Positions 21,049 to 30,467 of a stretch of DNA of 64,000 nucleotides are shown one piece after another. Within the stretch, counting starts at the first letter, position 1; each line of letters opens with the position of its first letter. The position numbers and the translations under genes are program-made. The notes beneath the pieces were generated by a model, which searched no databases, was not told the origin of the DNA, and saw only the letters and a list, made by a program, of their open reading frames with translations. Location: positions 124,001 through 188,000 of the forward strand of contig NZ_JANIBO010000002.1 in assembly GCF_024506395.1 (NCBI RefSeq), read 5' to 3'. Source of the stretch: Cetobacterium sp. NK01 (GTDB taxonomy: Bacteria; Fusobacteriota; Fusobacteriia; Fusobacteriales; Fusobacteriaceae).

Positions 21049-22734
21049 ATGAAATTTAAAGATTTTAAATACGAAAGACCTATCTATGATTCTACTAAGG
21101 AAAAGATAAATAATTTAATAGGAACTTTAAAAAACTCTAAAGATATTCAAGAACAAAAAAATATAGTTAATGAAATAAATCATATTAGAAATCATGTTTC
21201 GTCAATGTCTAGTATAGCTCATATTAGACATACAATAAATACTGAAGATGAATTTTATGATAAAGAAAATGAATACTGGGATGAAATCTCACCACTATAT
21301 CAAGAGCTAGATTCTAATTTTTATGAAGTTATGGTTAATCATTCAAATAAAAGTGAATTAGTTAAAGTGTTTGGAGAACAACTTTTTAAACTTATGGAAA
21401 ATAGTTTAAAAACATTTTCTACTGAAATTATAGAGGATTTACAAGAAGAGAATAAAGAAGTTTCTAAATATGTTAAACTTTTAGCCTCTGCTAAAATTTT
21501 ATTTGATGGAAAAGAAAGAAATCTATCAGGTATGACACCCTATATTCTATCTAAAGATAGGACAATTAGAAAAGCTGCCCAAGAAGCAAAATCAACTTTT
21601 TTTATAAATAATGAAAAGAAATTTGATGATATTTTTAATAATCTTGTTAATATAAGAGTTAAGATAGCTCATAAACTTGGTTTTAAAAATTTTATTGAAT
21701 TAGGATATTTAAGAATGAATAGAATTGACTATAACTCTGAAATGGTTGACTCTTTTAGAAAACAAGTTTTAGAAAGTATAGTACCTATAGCTTCTAATCT
21801 CTATGAAAAACAAAAGGAAAGATTAAATCTAGATACTCTTAAGTATTATGATGAAAAATTTGAATTTAATGATGGAAATCCTACCCCTAAAGGAGATTCT
21901 AACTGGATTATCGAACAAGGTAAAAAGATGTATCACGAACTTTCTCCTGAAACAGGAGAATTTATTGATTTTATGATTAATAACGATCTAATGGATTTGA
22001 CAACTAAAAAAGGTAAGGCTGGAGGGGGATACTGTACTTTTATTCCTGATTATAAATCTCCTTTTATTTTTTCAAACTTTAATGGAACAAGTGGAGATAT
22101 TGATGTATTAACTCATGAGGCAGGACATGCTTTTCAAGTTTATAGATCTAGTTGGATTGAAATTCCTGAACTTCTTTGGGCTACATATGAAAGTTCAGAA
22201 ATTCATTCAATGAGTATGGAATTTTTTACTTGGAATTGGATGGAAAACTTTTTCAAAGAAGATACTAATAAATATAAATATCTTCACCTAAGCAGCGCTA
22301 TTAAATTTATTCCATATGGTGTATTAGTCGATCATTTTCAACATAAAATTTATGAAAATCCAAATTTAACACCTTCTGAAAGAAAAACCATTTGGAGAGA
22401 ACTAGAAAAGGTATATAAACCTCATAGCGATTATTCTGAAAATCCGTTTTTAAATAAAGGAACTTGGTGGTTCCAGCAAGCTCATATATTTGAGGTTCCT
22501 TTTTATTATATCGATTATACTTTAGCTCAAATTTGTGCTTTACAGTTTTGGCAAAAAATGAACAAAGATTATAAAAATTCTTGGAAAGACTATCTAGACC
22601 TTTGTCACGAAGGTGGAACTAAATCTTTTTTAAATCTTTTAAAAGTGGCAAAATTACAATCTCCATTTGAGGATAAATGTGTAGAAAATATAATGATTGA
22701 TGTTAAAGAATTTTTAAATAATTTTCATTTTTAA
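21049..22734 (+). CDS. M3-family oligoendopeptidase
   Basis: This 561-residue zinc metallopeptidase cleaves short peptides in the cytoplasm. The zinc motif HEAGH lies at 356-360 (LTHEAGHAFQVY), with the third-ligand Glu region in ESSEIHSMSMEFF about 25 residues later. The length and KAGGGYCTFI and GTWWFQQAHIFEVPFYYIDY segments match the oligoendopeptidase F branch. No signal peptide is present. It stands alone between a strong promoter and terminator and probably finishes degradation of imported peptides. Confidence 0.92.
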   Translation: MKFKDFKYERPIYDSTKEKINNLIGTLKNSKDIQEQKNIVNEINHIRNHVSSMSSIAHIRHTINTEDEFYDKENEYWDEISPLYQELDSNFYEVMVNHSNKSELVKVFGEQLFKLMENSLKTFSTEIIEDLQEENKEVSKYVKLLASAKILFDGKERNLSGMTPYILSKDRTIRKAAQEAKSTFFINNEKKFDDIFNNLVNIRVKIAHKLGFKNFIELGYLRMNRIDYNSEMVDSFRKQVLESIVPIASNLYEKQKERLNLDTLKYYDEKFEFNDGNPTPKGDSNWIIEQGKKMYHELSPETGEFIDFMINNDLMDLTTKKGKAGGGYCTFIPDYKSPFIFSNFNGTSGDIDVLTHEAGHAFQVYRSSWIEIPELLWATYESSEIHSMSMEFFTWNWMENFFKEDTNKYKYLHLSSAIKFIPYGVLVDHFQHKIYENPNLTPSERKTIWRELEKVYKPHSDYSENPFLNKGTWWFQQAHIFEVPFYYIDYTLAQICALQFWQKMNKDYKNSWKDYLDLCHEGGTKSFLNLLKVAKLQSPFEDKCVENIMIDVKEFLNNFHF

Positions 22735-22812: not shown

Positions 22813-22839
22813 TTGACAGAATATGATTAGTGATACAAT
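22813..22839 (+). promoter_or_regulatory. Probable promoter of the RND efflux operon
   Basis: TTGACA (22813-22818) and TACAAT (22834-22839) are separated by 15 bases, a shorter spacer than usual. They lie about 20 bases before the start codon at 22861. No regulator gene is adjacent. Confidence 0.5.
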
Positions 22840-22860: not shown

Positions 22861-25041
22861 ATGGGAAAAATCTTTTTTTTACTTTTAATTTTTAATTTTT
22901 CTTTGTTTGCTAAAACACTAGATGTTGGAGTTATTTTAGAAAATCACTCTGAATGCTCACAAAATGCTTTAGATATTCTTAAAGATGAATTAAATAAAAA
23001 TTTTGCAGGTACAAATTTTTCACCTAAAATTACCGAAAAATATTACCTAACTAATCACAATATTCAAGATGGAATAAATAAACTTAATGCCAATTCTAAA
23101 ATTGACGCTGTTTTTATTTTAACTTGTGCTCCTCTAGAGAACATAACTAATTTAAAAAACAATAAATTCTATTCTGTTCCTCTAGGTTTTGGAGACAAGG
23201 GATACAATGTTCCAAAAAATTTAAATTATATTTATAGTAATCTTAATTTAAACGATTACTTAATGCCATTTAAAGATTTAAATGGTATTACAGAAATAGA
23301 TGTTCTTATTTCTAATATGAATTCAAATAATTTAAATTATCTTGCTAAACATACAAATATTCCTGGAATTAAAGTTAATGTACTTAGAGCTACAAAAGAT
23401 AATCTTTTAAATGCTATTGATAAAAAAATACCATCATTTCTAATAGATTTTAATGAAGAATTAAAACCTTATGCTTATTCTGGATTAAATTTAGAAAAAG
23501 AGTTTAGAAAAAGATTAAGAGCTGCATCTTTAAATTACATGTTTTTTAAAACACAAAAAGATATAAGTCAAATAGTTGAAGTAAATCCACCAATTAAAGA
23601 TATATACTTAAATTCTGATGTTGCTTCTAAAATTGATGTATATCCTAATTTAATTTTCTTACAAAGTTTATCTCAAGTTAATTTTTCTCAAACAAACTAT
23701 CCTAAGTTATCATTAAAGTTTGCTATTAAAAGAGCATTAGATTCTAACTTAGACTTATTACAAGTTAAACAAAATGTATTTTCTAACTTCTATAATGTTA
23801 AAGTTACTAACTCTAAGAGATTACCTCAACTTTCTGCTAACATGGATTATGCCGCTTTAGATGATAGATCACCTTCTTTTAAACAAGGTTCTCCTACTAA
23901 CAGTGTAAACTCTTACTTAGAACTTTCACAAGTAATATTTAGTGATCAAATAAACGCTAGTGTTTTCATTGAAAAATTAGCATTAGATTCTAGTAGGAAA
24001 GCATATGATCAACAAAAATTAGATACTATATATTACGTTGCTTCTACTTACGTTAATATTTTACAGCTGAAAGCACAATTTGAAATACAAATGAGTAACT
24101 ATAATCTATTGAGAGAAACATTAAATATAGCTCAAATTAACTACAACGTTGGAGCTGGCGGTTTACAAGATGTTTATAGATTACAATCTGACGTTGCAGG
24201 AGCTCTTTCTGACATTTCAAATATTCAAGGAGAAATAAGAGCACAAGAGATCTATTTAAATAACTTACTTAACTATCCTCAAGGAAATAGCTATACTTAT
24301 GAAAATTTAGATGAAGTATCTTCATATTTTTTACTTAATCAAAACTTAGGTAAAAACTTTACTTTCGGTTCTGACAAAGCTAAAAGAATTGAGAATTTCT
24401 TAGTACATGGTGCTATTAATAATTCTAACTCTTTAAAACAAATTGATAACAACATTAAAAGTAAAGAAAGAGAATATGTAGCTAATAAAAGAGAGAGATA
24501 TTTACCTACTGTTACTGCAGCTGGTAATTACTATAAAAATAATGTTGTTACTCCTTGGGGACAAAACTCTAACAAAGATTTCCCTGATGAATATTGGCAA
24601 GCTGGTATTAATGTTTCTTTACCTCTTATAAGTGGAGGAGAGATTTACTATAATGGAAAAGTTATTCAAAGCGAATTACAGGCTCTTGAATACAATAAGC
24701 TTTCTGCACAAAGCCAATTATCTAAACAAGTTTTACAAACATATACTACATTATTATCTAACTTTGTTCAAAGTTATACTACTAAGATTTCATCTGATGT
24801 AGCTAAAAAAAATCTAGACATTGTAAAAAATCTTTATGCTGAAGGTACTATTACAATTACTGATTTTCTATCTGCACAAAATAACACTTTAAGTCAAGAG
24901 CTAAATCATGTTATTGAAAACTTTAACTTAATTAACTCTACTTTAAAACTTGAAAATCTTTATGGAAAATCATCTCTAACAATGAGCGATGCCGAAAGAA
25001 AAAGCTTACTTTTAGAACTTCAAAAAGAGTTAGGAAATTAG
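22861..25041 (+). CDS. TolC-family outer-membrane efflux protein with extra N-terminal periplasmic domain
   Basis: The 726-residue exported protein has a signal peptide (MGKIFFLLLIFNFSLFA) followed by about 260 residues that TolC proteins normally lack. This segment has alternating beta/alpha character (LDVGVILENH, KIDAVFILTC, EIDVLISNMN, IPSFLIDFNEE) resembling a periplasmic binding-protein fold. The TolC/OEP domain spans about 285-720, with paired coiled-coil repeats (NYNVGAGGLQDVYRLQSDVAG and NLYAEGTITITDFLSAQN). It should form the trimeric outer-membrane channel of the pump encoded by the next two genes. Adaptor and transporter follow by 12 and 2 bases, so all three are one operon. Confidence 0.85.
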   Translation: MGKIFFLLLIFNFSLFAKTLDVGVILENHSECSQNALDILKDELNKNFAGTNFSPKITEKYYLTNHNIQDGINKLNANSKIDAVFILTCAPLENITNLKNNKFYSVPLGFGDKGYNVPKNLNYIYSNLNLNDYLMPFKDLNGITEIDVLISNMNSNNLNYLAKHTNIPGIKVNVLRATKDNLLNAIDKKIPSFLIDFNEELKPYAYSGLNLEKEFRKRLRAASLNYMFFKTQKDISQIVEVNPPIKDIYLNSDVASKIDVYPNLIFLQSLSQVNFSQTNYPKLSLKFAIKRALDSNLDLLQVKQNVFSNFYNVKVTNSKRLPQLSANMDYAALDDRSPSFKQGSPTNSVNSYLELSQVIFSDQINASVFIEKLALDSSRKAYDQQKLDTIYYVASTYVNILQLKAQFEIQMSNYNLLRETLNIAQINYNVGAGGLQDVYRLQSDVAGALSDISNIQGEIRAQEIYLNNLLNYPQGNSYTYENLDEVSSYFLLNQNLGKNFTFGSDKAKRIENFLVHGAINNSNSLKQIDNNIKSKEREYVANKRERYLPTVTAAGNYYKNNVVTPWGQNSNKDFPDEYWQAGINVSLPLISGGEIYYNGKVIQSELQALEYNKLSAQSQLSKQVLQTYTTLLSNFVQSYTTKISSDVAKKNLDIVKNLYAEGTITITDFLSAQNNTLSQELNHVIENFNLINSTLKLENLYGKSSLTMSDAERKSLLLELQKELGN

Positions 25042-25053
25042 GAGGGAACAATT

Positions 25054-26142
25054 ATGAAAAATAAATTACTTATATGCACGCTTTTAGTTTTACTTTTAGC
25101 ATGTGGAAAAGATAAAAATGAAGACAATGCAGGTGACGTTAAATCTGTTGTTTATGAAAAAGTTGAGAAAAAAGATTATGATGTGAAAAGATCATATTCA
25201 GGTACCGTTAATACTGAGGCTTTATCTGATTTAAGTTTCAGAGTTTCAGGAACTATAAATAATCGTATTGCACAACTTGGTGACGTTGTGAAAAAAGGAC
25301 AAATTTTAGCGACATTAGATCCTATTGAATACCAACTTAGTTATCAGCAATCTTTATCTGATTTAGATAAAGGAAATGCAAATCTAGCTGAATCAACAGC
25401 TAATTTTAAAAGATCTGAAGCACTATATTTAGAAAATAGTATTTCTAAAGCTTCTTATGATAGCGCAACTGCAAATTATAAGTCTGCTATTTCATCTGTT
25501 AAAGCTTTAGAAGATGCTGTAAATTTAGCTAAAGTTAAACTTGATTACACTATGCTTGTTGCTCCAAGCGATGGATCTATTGGAGAGGTAAAAAGTGAGG
25601 TTAACCAAACTGTATCTCCAAACACTGTTGTTTTTGTTCTAAATACTTTTGGTGAAAGATATGTGGAGTTCAATGTTTCTCAATCTGTAGTTGGTGATTT
25701 AAATTTAGGAGAGGAAGTAGAAATCGAAATAATTTCTCTTAATAATTTAAAAATTAAAGGAACTATTACAAATATCGGTACTCTTTCTGTTGGATATGGT
25801 GGTACTTACCCTATAAAAGCTAAAATTATAGATCCATTAGATAATGTAAAAGTTGGTATGACAGCTAAAGTTATTGTAACAATAAACAAACCTGAAAAAA
25901 TCATTGCAGTTCCTTTAACTGCTATTTTAACTGCACCAAATGGAGAAAAGTATGTATATGTAGTTCAAAACCTTGAAAATAATGTAGGTGTTGTAAAAAA
26001 GAGAGTTGTTACACTAGGTGATACAACTGAAATCGGTGTTGAAATTTTAAGTGGACTTGAAAATAATGATGTTGTCGTTACAAAAGGAAGTAGCGTTCTT
26101 TTAGAGGATCAAAAGGTTTCTCTTTTAAAAGGGGCTGAATAG
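25054..26142 (+). CDS. RND efflux periplasmic adaptor lipoprotein
   Basis: The 362-residue membrane-fusion protein is a lipoprotein: the N-terminus MKNKLLICTLLVLLLACGKD has lipobox LLAC with acylated Cys at 17. Domain order is typical: barrel-sandwich (FRVSGTINNRIAQLGDVVKKGQILATLDP), alpha-hairpin coiled coil (about 90-155), second lipoyl half (LDYTMLVAPSDGSIGEV), beta-barrel, and membrane-proximal domain (VAVPLTAILTAPNGEKYVYVV-like). It links the RND pump to TolC and is probably anchored in the outer leaflet of the inner membrane. Confidence 0.92.
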   Translation: MKNKLLICTLLVLLLACGKDKNEDNAGDVKSVVYEKVEKKDYDVKRSYSGTVNTEALSDLSFRVSGTINNRIAQLGDVVKKGQILATLDPIEYQLSYQQSLSDLDKGNANLAESTANFKRSEALYLENSISKASYDSATANYKSAISSVKALEDAVNLAKVKLDYTMLVAPSDGSIGEVKSEVNQTVSPNTVVFVLNTFGERYVEFNVSQSVVGDLNLGEEVEIEIISLNNLKIKGTITNIGTLSVGYGGTYPIKAKIIDPLDNVKVGMTAKVIVTINKPEKIIAVPLTAILTAPNGEKYVYVVQNLENNVGVVKKRVVTLGDTTEIGVEILSGLENNDVVVTKGSSVLLEDQKVSLLKGAE

Positions 26143-26144
26143 TT

Positions 26145-29100
26145 ATGAAGTTAACCGAATTAGCAATTAAGAATAAAGTTACTACCTATTTTTTAATAGT
26201 AATCCTGCTTATTGGTGGATATCTATCTTACGACAAATCAGAGAAAGCTCAAGATCCTGGTTTTACAATAAAAGTAGCTCTTATTACAACAAATTGGCCT
26301 GGTGCTACAGCTAAGCAGATGGCTGATTTAGTTAGTAAAAGAATTGCCGACCAAGTTCAAAATATGGATTCGTTATGGTATGTTAATTCCACTAATACAG
26401 ATGGACAATCTAATGTGTATGTTAATATCAAAGCTGAATATAAAGATATTCAGCCTGTTTGGACAGAGCTGAGAAATAGAATTAATACATTTGTTGTTCC
26501 AAATCTTCCTCAAGGAGTTCAGGCTCCTCAAATAAACACCTTCTATGGTGATATTTATGGAACTCTTCTTGCTATTGGGGGAGATGGATACACTTATGAG
26601 GAGCTTTATAAAACTGCATACCAATTAAAAGAAGTTTTATTGTTTAATGTTCCTCAAATTGGAAGTATTGATATTTCTGGTATTCAAAACGAAACTATCT
26701 ATATTGATGTAGATAACAAACTTTTATCTCAATCTGGTATAACTTTAGAAAATATAATAAATACTTTAAATAAATCTAATGTTATTATTAAGGGTGGTAA
26801 TATTGTTATTGAAGATAATAGACTTAAAGTTTCTCCAAGTGGTAACTTTAAAAGTATTGATGACATTAAAAATACTATTATTACTAGTCCTAATGGAAAT
26901 TCAAGTATTTATTTAAGTGAGATAGCTAATGTCTATAAAGGCTACCAAGAACCATCTCCTTACTCTATTGATTTTAATGGTAATAAATCTTTAGTTTTAG
27001 GAATATCTTTAGGAGCTGGAGAAGACGTTTTATTAATGGGAAAAGGAATTCAAAAAACTCTAAAAGAGTATAGAGATGCTTTACCAATAGGTTTAGAAGT
27101 TGGAGAGATCTATTATCTTCCAGATTTAGTTCAAACAAATGTAACTGCATTTATTGTTAACCTTTTCCAAGCTGTTACTACAATTATTTTAGTTATGCTT
27201 ATTTTCTTAGGGTTACGTTCTGGATTAATTGTTGCTGCTTTAACACCTACTTCTATAGCCTTTACACTTATTGGACTTTATTGGTTCGGCTATGGAATAA
27301 ACCAAATAACTCTAGCAGGACTTATAATTGCTTTAGGAATGCTTGTTGACAACGCTGTTGTTATGTCTGAAAATATAACTGTATTATTAGAAGAGGGACA
27401 AAGTAGAATGGATGCTTGTTTAGAGTCTTCTAAAACACTTGCAATTCCATTATTTGTAAGTTCTCTTACAACAATTATGGCATTCTCACCTATAATTTTA
27501 AATAAACAAAATATGGGTGAATATGTTGGACCACTTACTATTGTTGTTATGTTTGCTCTTATGAGTTCATGGTTAATAAACCAAACGTTTATTCCTTTAC
27601 TATGTTATGATTTTATAAAATTAAAACCTGGTGAAAAACAAAATTTAAATAGTAAACCTTATACAATGTATAGAGAAATTTTAATATTAGTTTTAAAACA
27701 TAAAAAAGTTACTGTTATTGGAACAGCCATATCTTTTATCTTTGGGCTTTGGTTACTTGGTCTTGCACCGGCTAACTTTATGCCAGCTTCAACTGACCCA
27801 GTTATGTCAACATATATAAGTTTACCTAAGGGAACTGATATTAATTACACAAGAGAGGTTGTTGAAGATTTAAATAAATTTATTGCAAAGAATTACAGTA
27901 CTGGTCCTCAAGAACCACTTCCACCTGGACTTTGGGATTATCTTACAACTGGTGGAACAACAAAAACATATGAAAAAGCCGGTGTTTTAAGCTGGGGGTC
28001 ATTTATTGGAGGAGGTGCTCCTAGATTCTCTACTGGATATTCACCACAGACTCAACTACCTGAATATGCTTACATTATGTATAATCTAACAGATTATAAA
28101 TTAATACCAAAATTAAGCAAAGAGATTAACGAGTATCTTTTAAATAAGTATCCTGATATGGACGTTGTATCTAAAGGATTAGGAAGTGGAGTATCTCTTG
28201 CTAAAGATTTAGGATATGTTTTTGCATCTCGTGATATAGATCTGTTAAAAAAAGTTTCTGAAGAAGTAAAAACTAAATTAACCTCTTTAAAAGGAGCTTA
28301 TGCTGTTTCAGACAACTGGGGTATTGAAGTTCCTGAAATTTTTATAGAAGTTAATACTGAAAAAGCTCAAATGGCAGGATTTAACAATGAAACTGTTGGA
28401 ACTTATTTACAATATGTTCTTCAAGGTTATAACGCAAGTGTTTATAGAAACTTTGAAGCTCCACCACAAAGTACAATTATTCCAATAGTTTTAAGAGCTA
28501 CTAATGAGTATAAAAATGATTTAAATTCAATTGAATCAATTGAATTAATTAACTCACAAGGCCAAGCAGTTCCTTTAAAACAAATTGCAAACATAACACT
28601 AAATTATTCTAATAGTCTAGTTGCTACAAGAAATATGGCATATTCAATTGAAATTGATGCTGCAATTAGAGACTTTACTACTCCATTAGAAGTTAATAAA
28701 CAATTTATGCCTTGGTTAAATGAAAAATTAAAAGAATGGGGTCCAAGTGTTAAATATTATTCATCTGGTATTATGCAAACATCTGATGAGAACCAACAAG
28801 CTTTATTCCAACAAGTTCCAATAGCAATTTTAGGTATGTTTTTCCTTGTAGTTGCTCAGTTTAACTCTATGAAAAAAGGACTTACTATTATGTTAGTAAT
28901 TCCACTTTCTATATTAGGAGTTGCAATTGGTTTACTAATTACAAATACAGATCTTGGATTTATGGCAATGATTGGTATTATATCTCTTGCTGGAGTTGTT
29001 CTTAACCATGCTATCATTCTGGTCGATAAGATGACCATTGAAAAAGATGTTTTAAAACGTACAGATCAAGATGCAGTTGTGTTTGGTTGTCAATCAAGAC

Positions 29101-29345
29101 TTAGACCTATTTTCCTAACTGTTGCAACAACATTAGTTGGTCTATTACCTCTATACTTCTTCGGTGGACCATTATTCCAACCAGTTGCTGTTGTTCTTAT
29201 ATTTGGTCTTGTTACAGATACAGTTTTAGCTCTTGGAGTTATTCCTGTTATATATGCACTTTTCTATAAAATAAACTTCTCTGATTACACATATGATGAG
29301 CGTCGTTTAATAGAAAATACTCCAAGTGATACGAAAAATAATTAA
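26145..29345 (+). CDS. RND-family multidrug efflux transporter
   Basis: This 1066-residue inner-membrane pump has duplicated six-helix halves and two large periplasmic loops. It contains the conserved TM4 motif ALGMLVDNAVVMSENI, which carries one Asp plus Asn where AcrB has Asp-Asp. The TM10 counterpart is IISLAGVVLNHAIILVDKM, without the AcrB Lys. This DN arrangement recurs in RND pumps outside the AcrB group, so proton coupling is probably intact but organised differently. With the upstream adaptor and TolC protein it forms a complete tripartite exporter. Substrates cannot be predicted. A strong terminator follows. Confidence 0.93.
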   Translation: MKLTELAIKNKVTTYFLIVILLIGGYLSYDKSEKAQDPGFTIKVALITTNWPGATAKQMADLVSKRIADQVQNMDSLWYVNSTNTDGQSNVYVNIKAEYKDIQPVWTELRNRINTFVVPNLPQGVQAPQINTFYGDIYGTLLAIGGDGYTYEELYKTAYQLKEVLLFNVPQIGSIDISGIQNETIYIDVDNKLLSQSGITLENIINTLNKSNVIIKGGNIVIEDNRLKVSPSGNFKSIDDIKNTIITSPNGNSSIYLSEIANVYKGYQEPSPYSIDFNGNKSLVLGISLGAGEDVLLMGKGIQKTLKEYRDALPIGLEVGEIYYLPDLVQTNVTAFIVNLFQAVTTIILVMLIFLGLRSGLIVAALTPTSIAFTLIGLYWFGYGINQITLAGLIIALGMLVDNAVVMSENITVLLEEGQSRMDACLESSKTLAIPLFVSSLTTIMAFSPIILNKQNMGEYVGPLTIVVMFALMSSWLINQTFIPLLCYDFIKLKPGEKQNLNSKPYTMYREILILVLKHKKVTVIGTAISFIFGLWLLGLAPANFMPASTDPVMSTYISLPKGTDINYTREVVEDLNKFIAKNYSTGPQEPLPPGLWDYLTTGGTTKTYEKAGVLSWGSFIGGGAPRFSTGYSPQTQLPEYAYIMYNLTDYKLIPKLSKEINEYLLNKYPDMDVVSKGLGSGVSLAKDLGYVFASRDIDLLKKVSEEVKTKLTSLKGAYAVSDNWGIEVPEIFIEVNTEKAQMAGFNNETVGTYLQYVLQGYNASVYRNFEAPPQSTIIPIVLRATNEYKNDLNSIESIELINSQGQAVPLKQIANITLNYSNSLVATRNMAYSIEIDAAIRDFTTPLEVNKQFMPWLNEKLKEWGPSVKYYSSGIMQTSDENQQALFQQVPIAILGMFFLVVAQFNSMKKGLTIMLVIPLSILGVAIGLLITNTDLGFMAMIGIISLAGVVLNHAIILVDKMTIEKDVLKRTDQDAVVFGCQSRLRPIFLTVATTLVGLLPLYFFGGPLFQPVAVVLIFGLVTDTVLALGVIPVIYALFYKINFSDYTYDERRLIENTPSDTKNN

Positions 29346-29480: not shown

Positions 29481-30467
29481 ATGAAGCTAATTTGTTTTGG
29501 AGTTAGAAAAGTGGAACGTGATTTTTTCATAAATTTAAATAGATTTGGGTATGAATTAACTTTAGTTGAAGAGTTATTAAATGATGATAATATAAATTTA
29601 GTAGAGAATCATGAAGCAATAATGTTAAGAGCAAATTGTCCTGCTAATAAAAAAAATTTAGAACTCTTCAAAAAATATGGAATCAAATATATTTTAACTA
29701 GAACTGTAGGTTATAATCATATTGACTTAGATGCATCTAGAGAACTGGGATTTAAAGTGGCTAGAGTTCCCACATACTCACCAAACGCTATTGGAGAACT
29801 AGTGATTACCTTTGCTATGAATTTAGTTAGAAAAGGGGTTTATATGATTAATAGAAGCTTACAGAAGAATTTTATAGTGGATGAGTTTATGTTTAGTAGA
29901 GAAATACGAAATTTAACTGTTGGTATAATTGGTACTGGTAAAATTGGTCTTACGACTGCTAAACTTTTTAAAGGTCTTGGATCTAATATTATTGCATATG
30001 ATGTTTATAAAAATGAATCTGCCAAAGAATTTTTAGAATATGTTTCATTAGATGAATTAATTAAAACTTCTGATATTATAAGCTTACATTGTCCATATAT
30101 AAAAGGTGTTAACGACAATTTAATTGATGATGATTTTATTAATAAAGCTAAAGATGATGTTATCATAATAAATACTGCTAGAGGAGAGCTTCAAGATGTC
30201 GAAGCTGTTATAAGAGGATTAGAAAATGGTAAAGTCGGTGGCTTTGCAACAGATGTGTTCTCTAATGAAAAAGAGTTTTTCTTTAAAGATATGAGAAATA
30301 AAACAATTGATGAAAATATTGAGAAGCTTTTAAACCTTTATCCAAAAGTATTGATTACACCTCATATAGGCTCTTACACTGATGAAGCATTAACAAATAT
30401 GATTGAAATTTCTTATGAAAATCTTAAAGAGTTTATTGAAACAGGCTTTTGTGAAAATCAACTTTAA
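29481..30467 (+). CDS. D-lactate dehydrogenase-like D-2-hydroxyacid dehydrogenase
   Basis: The 328-residue NAD-dependent enzyme interconverts a 2-oxoacid and D-2-hydroxyacid, most likely pyruvate and D-lactate. It has the Rossmann motif GTGKIG, the substrate Arg in NTARGELQDVE, an acid-base His in TPHIGSYTDEA, and the VGYNHIDLDAS segment typical of the LdhA/HicDH group. The expected length for the family is about 330. It is monocistronic, with AAGGAGG before the ATG. Alternative substrates such as 2-oxoisocaproate are possible. Confidence 0.87.
   Translation: MKLICFGVRKVERDFFINLNRFGYELTLVEELLNDDNINLVENHEAIMLRANCPANKKNLELFKKYGIKYILTRTVGYNHIDLDASRELGFKVARVPTYSPNAIGELVITFAMNLVRKGVYMINRSLQKNFIVDEFMFSREIRNLTVGIIGTGKIGLTTAKLFKGLGSNIIAYDVYKNESAKEFLEYVSLDELIKTSDIISLHCPYIKGVNDNLIDDDFINKAKDDVIIINTARGELQDVEAVIRGLENGKVGGFATDVFSNEKEFFFKDMRNKTIDENIEKLLNLYPKVLITPHIGSYTDEALTNMIEISYENLKEFIETGFCENQL

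Follow-up and report, generated by a model that had tools for sequence, protein, structure and literature searches.

A TolC-type outer-membrane channel of Cetobacterium with an N-terminal domain related to periplasmic binding proteins

The fused gene and its operon

The 64,000-nt stretch of Cetobacterium sp. NK01 DNA analysed here (the window) contained a three-gene operon in which an outer-membrane factor with an additional N-terminal domain was followed by a lipoprotein adaptor and an RND permease. The genes and the parts of the fused protein were located as follows.

21049–22734: pepF, upstream of the operon
22813–22839, + strand: possible promoter, TTGACA-15-TACAAT, weak and read by eye
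22861–25041, + strand: open reading frame of the fused channel (726 residues)
22861–22911, + strand: signal peptide, residues 1–17 (MGKIFFLLLIFNFSLFA), without a lipobox cysteine; by inspection, it looks cleavable
22912–23670, + strand: periplasmic-binding-protein domain of the PF04392 type (TrpX-like, class I), residues ~18–270
23389–23394, + strand: site in lobe 2 (residues ~177/178) at which the VPTDN β–α unit of relatives (~24 residues) is missing, placed by alignments and matched to the CD0873 loop
23671–23706, + strand: short linker to the channel, residues ~271–282
23707–25041, + strand: TolC-type channel with two OEP repeats, residues ~283–726
25054–26142, + strand: RND periplasmic adaptor, a lipoprotein by inspection (LLAC)
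26145–29345, + strand: RND permease
29481–30467: dehydrogenase-like gene, downstream of the operon

The possible promoter was not listed by a consensus scan, owing to its 15-nt spacer. An extra domain between the signal peptide and the TolC part had been proposed at residues 18–285 by the sequence-only reading, in agreement with the domain and linker found here. The description of the locus as a standard adaptor–RND operon without a regulator was also borne out, as pepF and the dehydrogenase-like gene flanked the operon and no regulator gene adjoined it in the window.

The channel part was a member of the TolC/OprM outer-membrane factors (PF02321), both in its domain and in its operon place with an adaptor and an RND permease. 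The Pfam OEP model matched in two stretches from residue 286 with 160.2 bits (gathering score 22). The full-length AlphaFold2 model, a monomer with a pTM of 0.66, contained both the N-terminal domain and the TolC channel, and matched TolC (PDB code 1ek9) in Foldseek with an E-value of 7.8e-17 and a TM-score to the target of 0.80. Both helical-hairpin tips of the channel, VGAGGLQDVYR and EGTITITDFLSAQ, had the usual form. Unlike the NK01 protein, the matched TolC and OprM chains had no such N-terminal domain, consistent with the earlier statement that most TolC proteins lack one; the N-terminus of OprM is a lipid anchor (PMC8277102).

A paralogue of the fused channel, 57% identical, was located on a 118-kb contig of NK01 (G000:C5). 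In Cetobacterium somerae, a 705-kb replicon designated as a plasmid carried the orthologue, and a 128-kb plasmid carried the counterpart of the paralogue. The 610-kb NK01 contig of the fused operon (G000:C2) may likewise be a megaplasmid.

Identity and ligand site of the N-terminal domain

No Pfam or NCBIfam model matched residues 18–283 of the NK01 protein. PF04392 gave no match even at an E-value of 10, and the domain thus fell below its gathering cut-off; weak matches to Glyco_transf_99, Rv2949c-like and T4SS_LegC2C7 models were all far below the cut-offs and were rejected.

The AlphaFold2 model of the domain alone, from an alignment of 29 sequences, was a confident alternating β/α fold with a mean pLDDT of 90 and a pTM of 0.88. 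The top five PDB matches of this model in Foldseek were all PF04392-type proteins, namely 3lft with L-Trp (two chains, E-value of 1.9e-8), 3lkv (5.6e-8), and 6hnj/6hni (6.3e-7 for 6hnj), with TM-scores to the query of 0.58–0.66. The same type of structure was found with the full-length model, ranked behind TolC structures. The binding-protein-like β/α pattern read from the sequence was therefore confirmed, and neither a disordered segment nor a TolC-type coiled coil was predicted in its place.

A sequence profile built from the fused N-terminal domains (A2) reached stand-alone PF04392 proteins in Leptotrichia-like genomes, with E-values of 4.5e-6 to 3.1e-5 per genome. An hhalign comparison of the fused-domain profile with a Cetobacterium PF04392 protein gave an E-value of 1.8e-4 with a probability of only 49%. 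Relatives with the fusion in other phyla scored 33.5, 40.1, 38.6, and 27.7 bits with PF04392, above its cut-off (25.9 bits). The NK01 domain also showed the family's C-terminal signature (N-x-x-[TV]-A-x-x-[IL]-G), as NSDVASKID. No significant match was obtained when the PDB was searched directly with A2, so the fold match depends on Foldseek. Based on the matched folds, the reach of A2, and the fused relatives above the cut-off, descent of the domain from PF04392-type (TrpX/CD0873) amino-acid-binding proteins is secure, although the NK01 copy itself scores below the PF04392 cut-off.

Several other A2 matches were rejected. Weak matches occurred in Fusobacteriaceae open reading frames of ~500 residues, and the one inspected (G023) was an unrelated enzyme, cobyric-acid-synthase-like by eye. 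A 360-residue match in G046 looked like a sugar-binding protein, and a match in G100 was an unrelated 578-residue protein.

The known PF04392 (ABC_sub_bind) proteins include SP1069 of S. pneumoniae (TrpX-like, 3lft), VC_1101 of V. cholerae (3lkv), and CD0873 of C. difficile (6hni). Their ligands are Trp, Phe or Tyr, and they are regarded as the substrate-binding components of ABC importers (PMC6816091). The NK01 domain shares their fold, their C-terminal signature and profile-level homology, but is part of an outer-membrane channel and has no VPTDN loop. Importer permease and ATPase genes were absent beside the fused gene, whose adjoining operon genes encode the adaptor and the RND permease.

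In CD0873, Glu263 binds the hydroxyl group of the Tyr ligand directly, Val235 and Pro236 do so via a water molecule, and residue 279 restricts the size of the ligand (PMC6816091). These residues mapped to YLPTDN, GAEA, and GVSYYE of a Leptotrichia-like protein in an alignment to 6hni. The loops for an aromatic amino acid (HPALD, GVSD, VPTDN, and the Tyr279 region, in CD0873 numbering) were not kept in the NK01 domain. The VPTDN loop and its ~24-residue β–α unit were absent from 11 of 11 Cetobacterium-type sequences (Cetobacterium and g4 relatives) and the loop was replaced in the remaining fused sequences, while the HPALD and GVSD motifs were replaced in every fused sequence. The suggestion that the domain senses a ligand was thus not upheld for the NK01 copy. 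These three motifs were also missing from several stand-alone PF04392 proteins; therefore, what has been lost is the aromatic-amino-acid site, which need not mean all ligand binding. In the fused domains of other phyla, the loops had kept their lengths and a G-x-x-[AS]-[ST] loop was often present, as in stand-alone binding proteins. The ancestral domain may therefore have bound a ligand, and the Cetobacterium copies may retain another cleft. Sensing by the fused proteins of other phyla is still conceivable.

The dN/dS ratio of the N-terminal domain was 0.05–0.11 in nine informative pairs, against 0.03–0.11 for the channel, with synonymous sites near saturation in some pairs; one near-identical pair gave 0.20. 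The domain evolved faster than the channel in most pairs. Orthologues at 21–93% identity had the domain, and together with the low ratios they argue that it is real and not a chance reading. Judged from these ratios, its fold is under purifying selection.

Spread and origin of the fusion

Of the 98 Fusobacteriota genomes, at least 34 contained the fusion. This count comprised 26 genomes from the first search, four (G054, G058, G059, and G060) added by A2, and four (G045, G046, G055, and G097) added by a channel profile; for the last four, the domain was seen in loci L200, L201, and L198, and in G045 as a cut fragment. It was not found among the sampled genomes of Fusobacteriota family f4. At least three other phyla contained the fusion: it was present in 4 of 44 genomes of the phylum of G184, in G154 (the sole sampled genome of its phylum), in 8 of 192 genomes of the phylum of G213, and also in G268, G537, and G570. 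A survey across phyla, as called for by the sequence-only reading, thus recovered the architecture well beyond Cetobacterium, including on plasmid pSULKU01 of Sulfuricurvum kujiense; a contig search with one protein as the query had given matches in Cetobacterium only. In the copy of G154 analysed (contig C1, L096), the 3′ part of the fused gene reads N (masked), and the channel is incomplete.

Two long open reading frames with channels were of a different architecture. The 812-residue outer-membrane channel of G184:C71 (L204, 4971–7406, − strand) had an N-terminal region of ~200 residues that differed from the binding-protein domain. In G253:C27 (L203, 4212–6944, − strand), which is truncated by the contig end, the C-terminal half of an RND permease was fused in frame to an outer-membrane channel (PF00873 and PF02321).

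The order of fused channel, adaptor and RND permease was constant in the fetched Fusobacteriaceae loci and recurred in other phyla where the contig permitted, and an adaptor gene directly followed the fused gene in nearly all loci. In one Cetobacterium metagenome-assembled genome (L036, 8171–12846), the adaptor and RND genes were each split into two open reading frames beside an intact fused channel, which could reflect decay or an assembly error. In G213, the adaptor gene was followed by the contig end, and no pump gene was recognised beside the fused channel in G154, G268, and G537.

Two loci had other engines. The Sulfuricurvum protein WP_041667226.1 shares the PF04392 and OEP architecture of the NK01 protein; unlike the latter, it bears the sole annotation 'ABC transporter substrate binding protein', is preceded by a TetR regulator, and is followed by adaptor and ABC-2 exporter genes. 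In G097:C58, the genes beside the channel encoded an adaptor and an MFS transporter. The fused channel subfamily therefore occurs with at least two kinds of engine, and probably three (RND, ABC-2, and MFS). These exceptions indicate that the N-terminal domain is not tied to RND transport, and they weaken the earlier idea that it delivers substrate to the RND pump.

In a tree of the channel parts, 40 fused and 17 unfused sequences, several of both kinds from the same genomes, were split by one branch with 100% SH-aLRT support; the tree was of a quick kind, and the unfused sequences had been picked as good OEP matches rather than as nearest neighbours of the fused ones. When 389 genomes were searched with the channel-only profile, the best 46 matches (E-values up to 3e-55) were all in open reading frames of at least 706 residues except one, of 557 residues, which was cut by the contig start; the binding-protein match of the extension was checked in most members of this group. 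The next matches (E-values from 5e-46) were ordinary channels of ~420–480 residues. This gap indicates that the extension and the channel subfamily go together, and no loss of the extension was seen among the sampled members of the group in the 389 genomes. The L199 protein (G097:C58, 6073–8292, − strand) belongs to the same channel clade, with an N-terminal domain that is almost unrecognisable (match E-value of only 0.06).

Apparently, the sequences represent one old fusion that was kept with its channel subfamily. This single event would predate the divergence, or the transfer, of the fused channels in the sampled phyla. Pfam already assigns both domains in some relatives, and the architecture can therefore be seen in databases; the present analysis adds its identification in Fusobacteriota, data pointing to one origin, and a view of how far it has spread. 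No open-licence paper was found that describes an outer-membrane factor joined to a binding-protein domain.

Placement on the channel and possible roles

Residue 296 of the NK01 protein aligned with residue 14 of TolC, which placed the attachment of the N-terminal domain about where mature TolC begins (~residue 1). The N-terminal helix of TolC begins at the equatorial domain and reaches up to the membrane (PMC13082787), and the equatorial domain forms a belt around mid-channel (PMC8277102). The alignment thus suggests that the domain joins the channel at this belt and not at the adaptor-binding tip, which departs from the earlier placement on the periplasmic end. The coiled-coil helices pivot about the equatorial domain when TolC opens, and YbjP sits there on E. 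coli TolC in a 3:3 ratio (PMC13095208). With its predicted position, the N-terminal domain would resemble YbjP as a globular unit at the belt, three per trimer, by an analogy of place only. Unlike the domain, YbjP is a lipidated protein in its own right; it contains a DUF3828 domain, and its function is linked to some Enterobacterales (PMC13082787).

Within a tripartite efflux pump, the product of the NK01 gene would be the outer-membrane factor, with an N-terminal domain derived from a PF04392-type amino-acid-binding protein. The fold, homology, fusion, deletion, selection, spread and operon are computed results; from the attachment point, we infer that each channel trimer displays three of these domains, ringed around the equatorial belt at roughly the position of YbjP on TolC. 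In Cetobacterium, the ligand loop would have been deleted and the other tested loops changed while purifying selection kept the fold. Because of the belt position, the lost loop and the retained fold, the best-supported reading is that the domain acts as a structural or allosteric equatorial collar, which we give about an even chance. Such a collar may hold the channel in position, or stabilise the belt about which the helices swing and so tune opening, as YbjP may on TolC. A binding-protein fold is more than a purely structural brace would require, and YbjP is dispensable for efflux under standard conditions (PMC13082787); both points, and the loops kept by the fused domains of other phyla, count against the collar, and two functional rivals stand beside it.

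One rival, which we regard as unlikely, is a ligand-responsive channel, in which a small molecule is still bound by the domain, whose closure is relayed through the belt so that the channel opens or the pump is recruited. The retained binding-protein fold, the loop lengths and motifs of the fused domains in other phyla, and the role of the belt as the pivot of opening (PMC13095208) are consistent with it. However, the VPTDN loop is deleted and the other contact motifs are replaced in Cetobacterium, a single channel subfamily serves RND, ABC-2, and MFS engines, and no conserved adjacent uptake gene was present at the fetched fused loci.

A docking module has a similarly low probability. The domain would bind the lipoprotein adaptor or peptidoglycan and set which pumps dock, as might be expected from the adjacent adaptor gene and from the way the equatorial domain differs from channel to channel, probably in step with the adaptors (PMC8277102). 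The tips of adaptors, however, meet the channel at its periplasmic end, well away from the attachment point, and the hairpin-tip motifs of the NK01 channel are of the usual form.

Somewhat less probable still is that such proteins are widespread solute-gated efflux channels, whose N-terminal domain would sense a periplasmic small molecule and control opening, with the Cetobacterium copies responding to another ligand or fixed in one state. A passive leftover, kept since the channel needs some N-terminal fold for export or folding, is quite improbable, since the faster evolution of the domain and its strong divergence in L199 are outweighed by its low dN/dS ratios and by the lack of loss among the sampled members.

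The common view of TolC-type channels is that of exit ducts which their adaptors open. The N-terminal domain described here is hidden from annotation, as database records name these proteins TolC family protein or ABC substrate-binding protein. A binding-protein domain that has been kept near the opening pivot, in several phyla and with at least two and probably three engine types, makes it possible to ask in a natural setting whether accessory domains at the equatorial belt govern where the channel is placed or how it opens.
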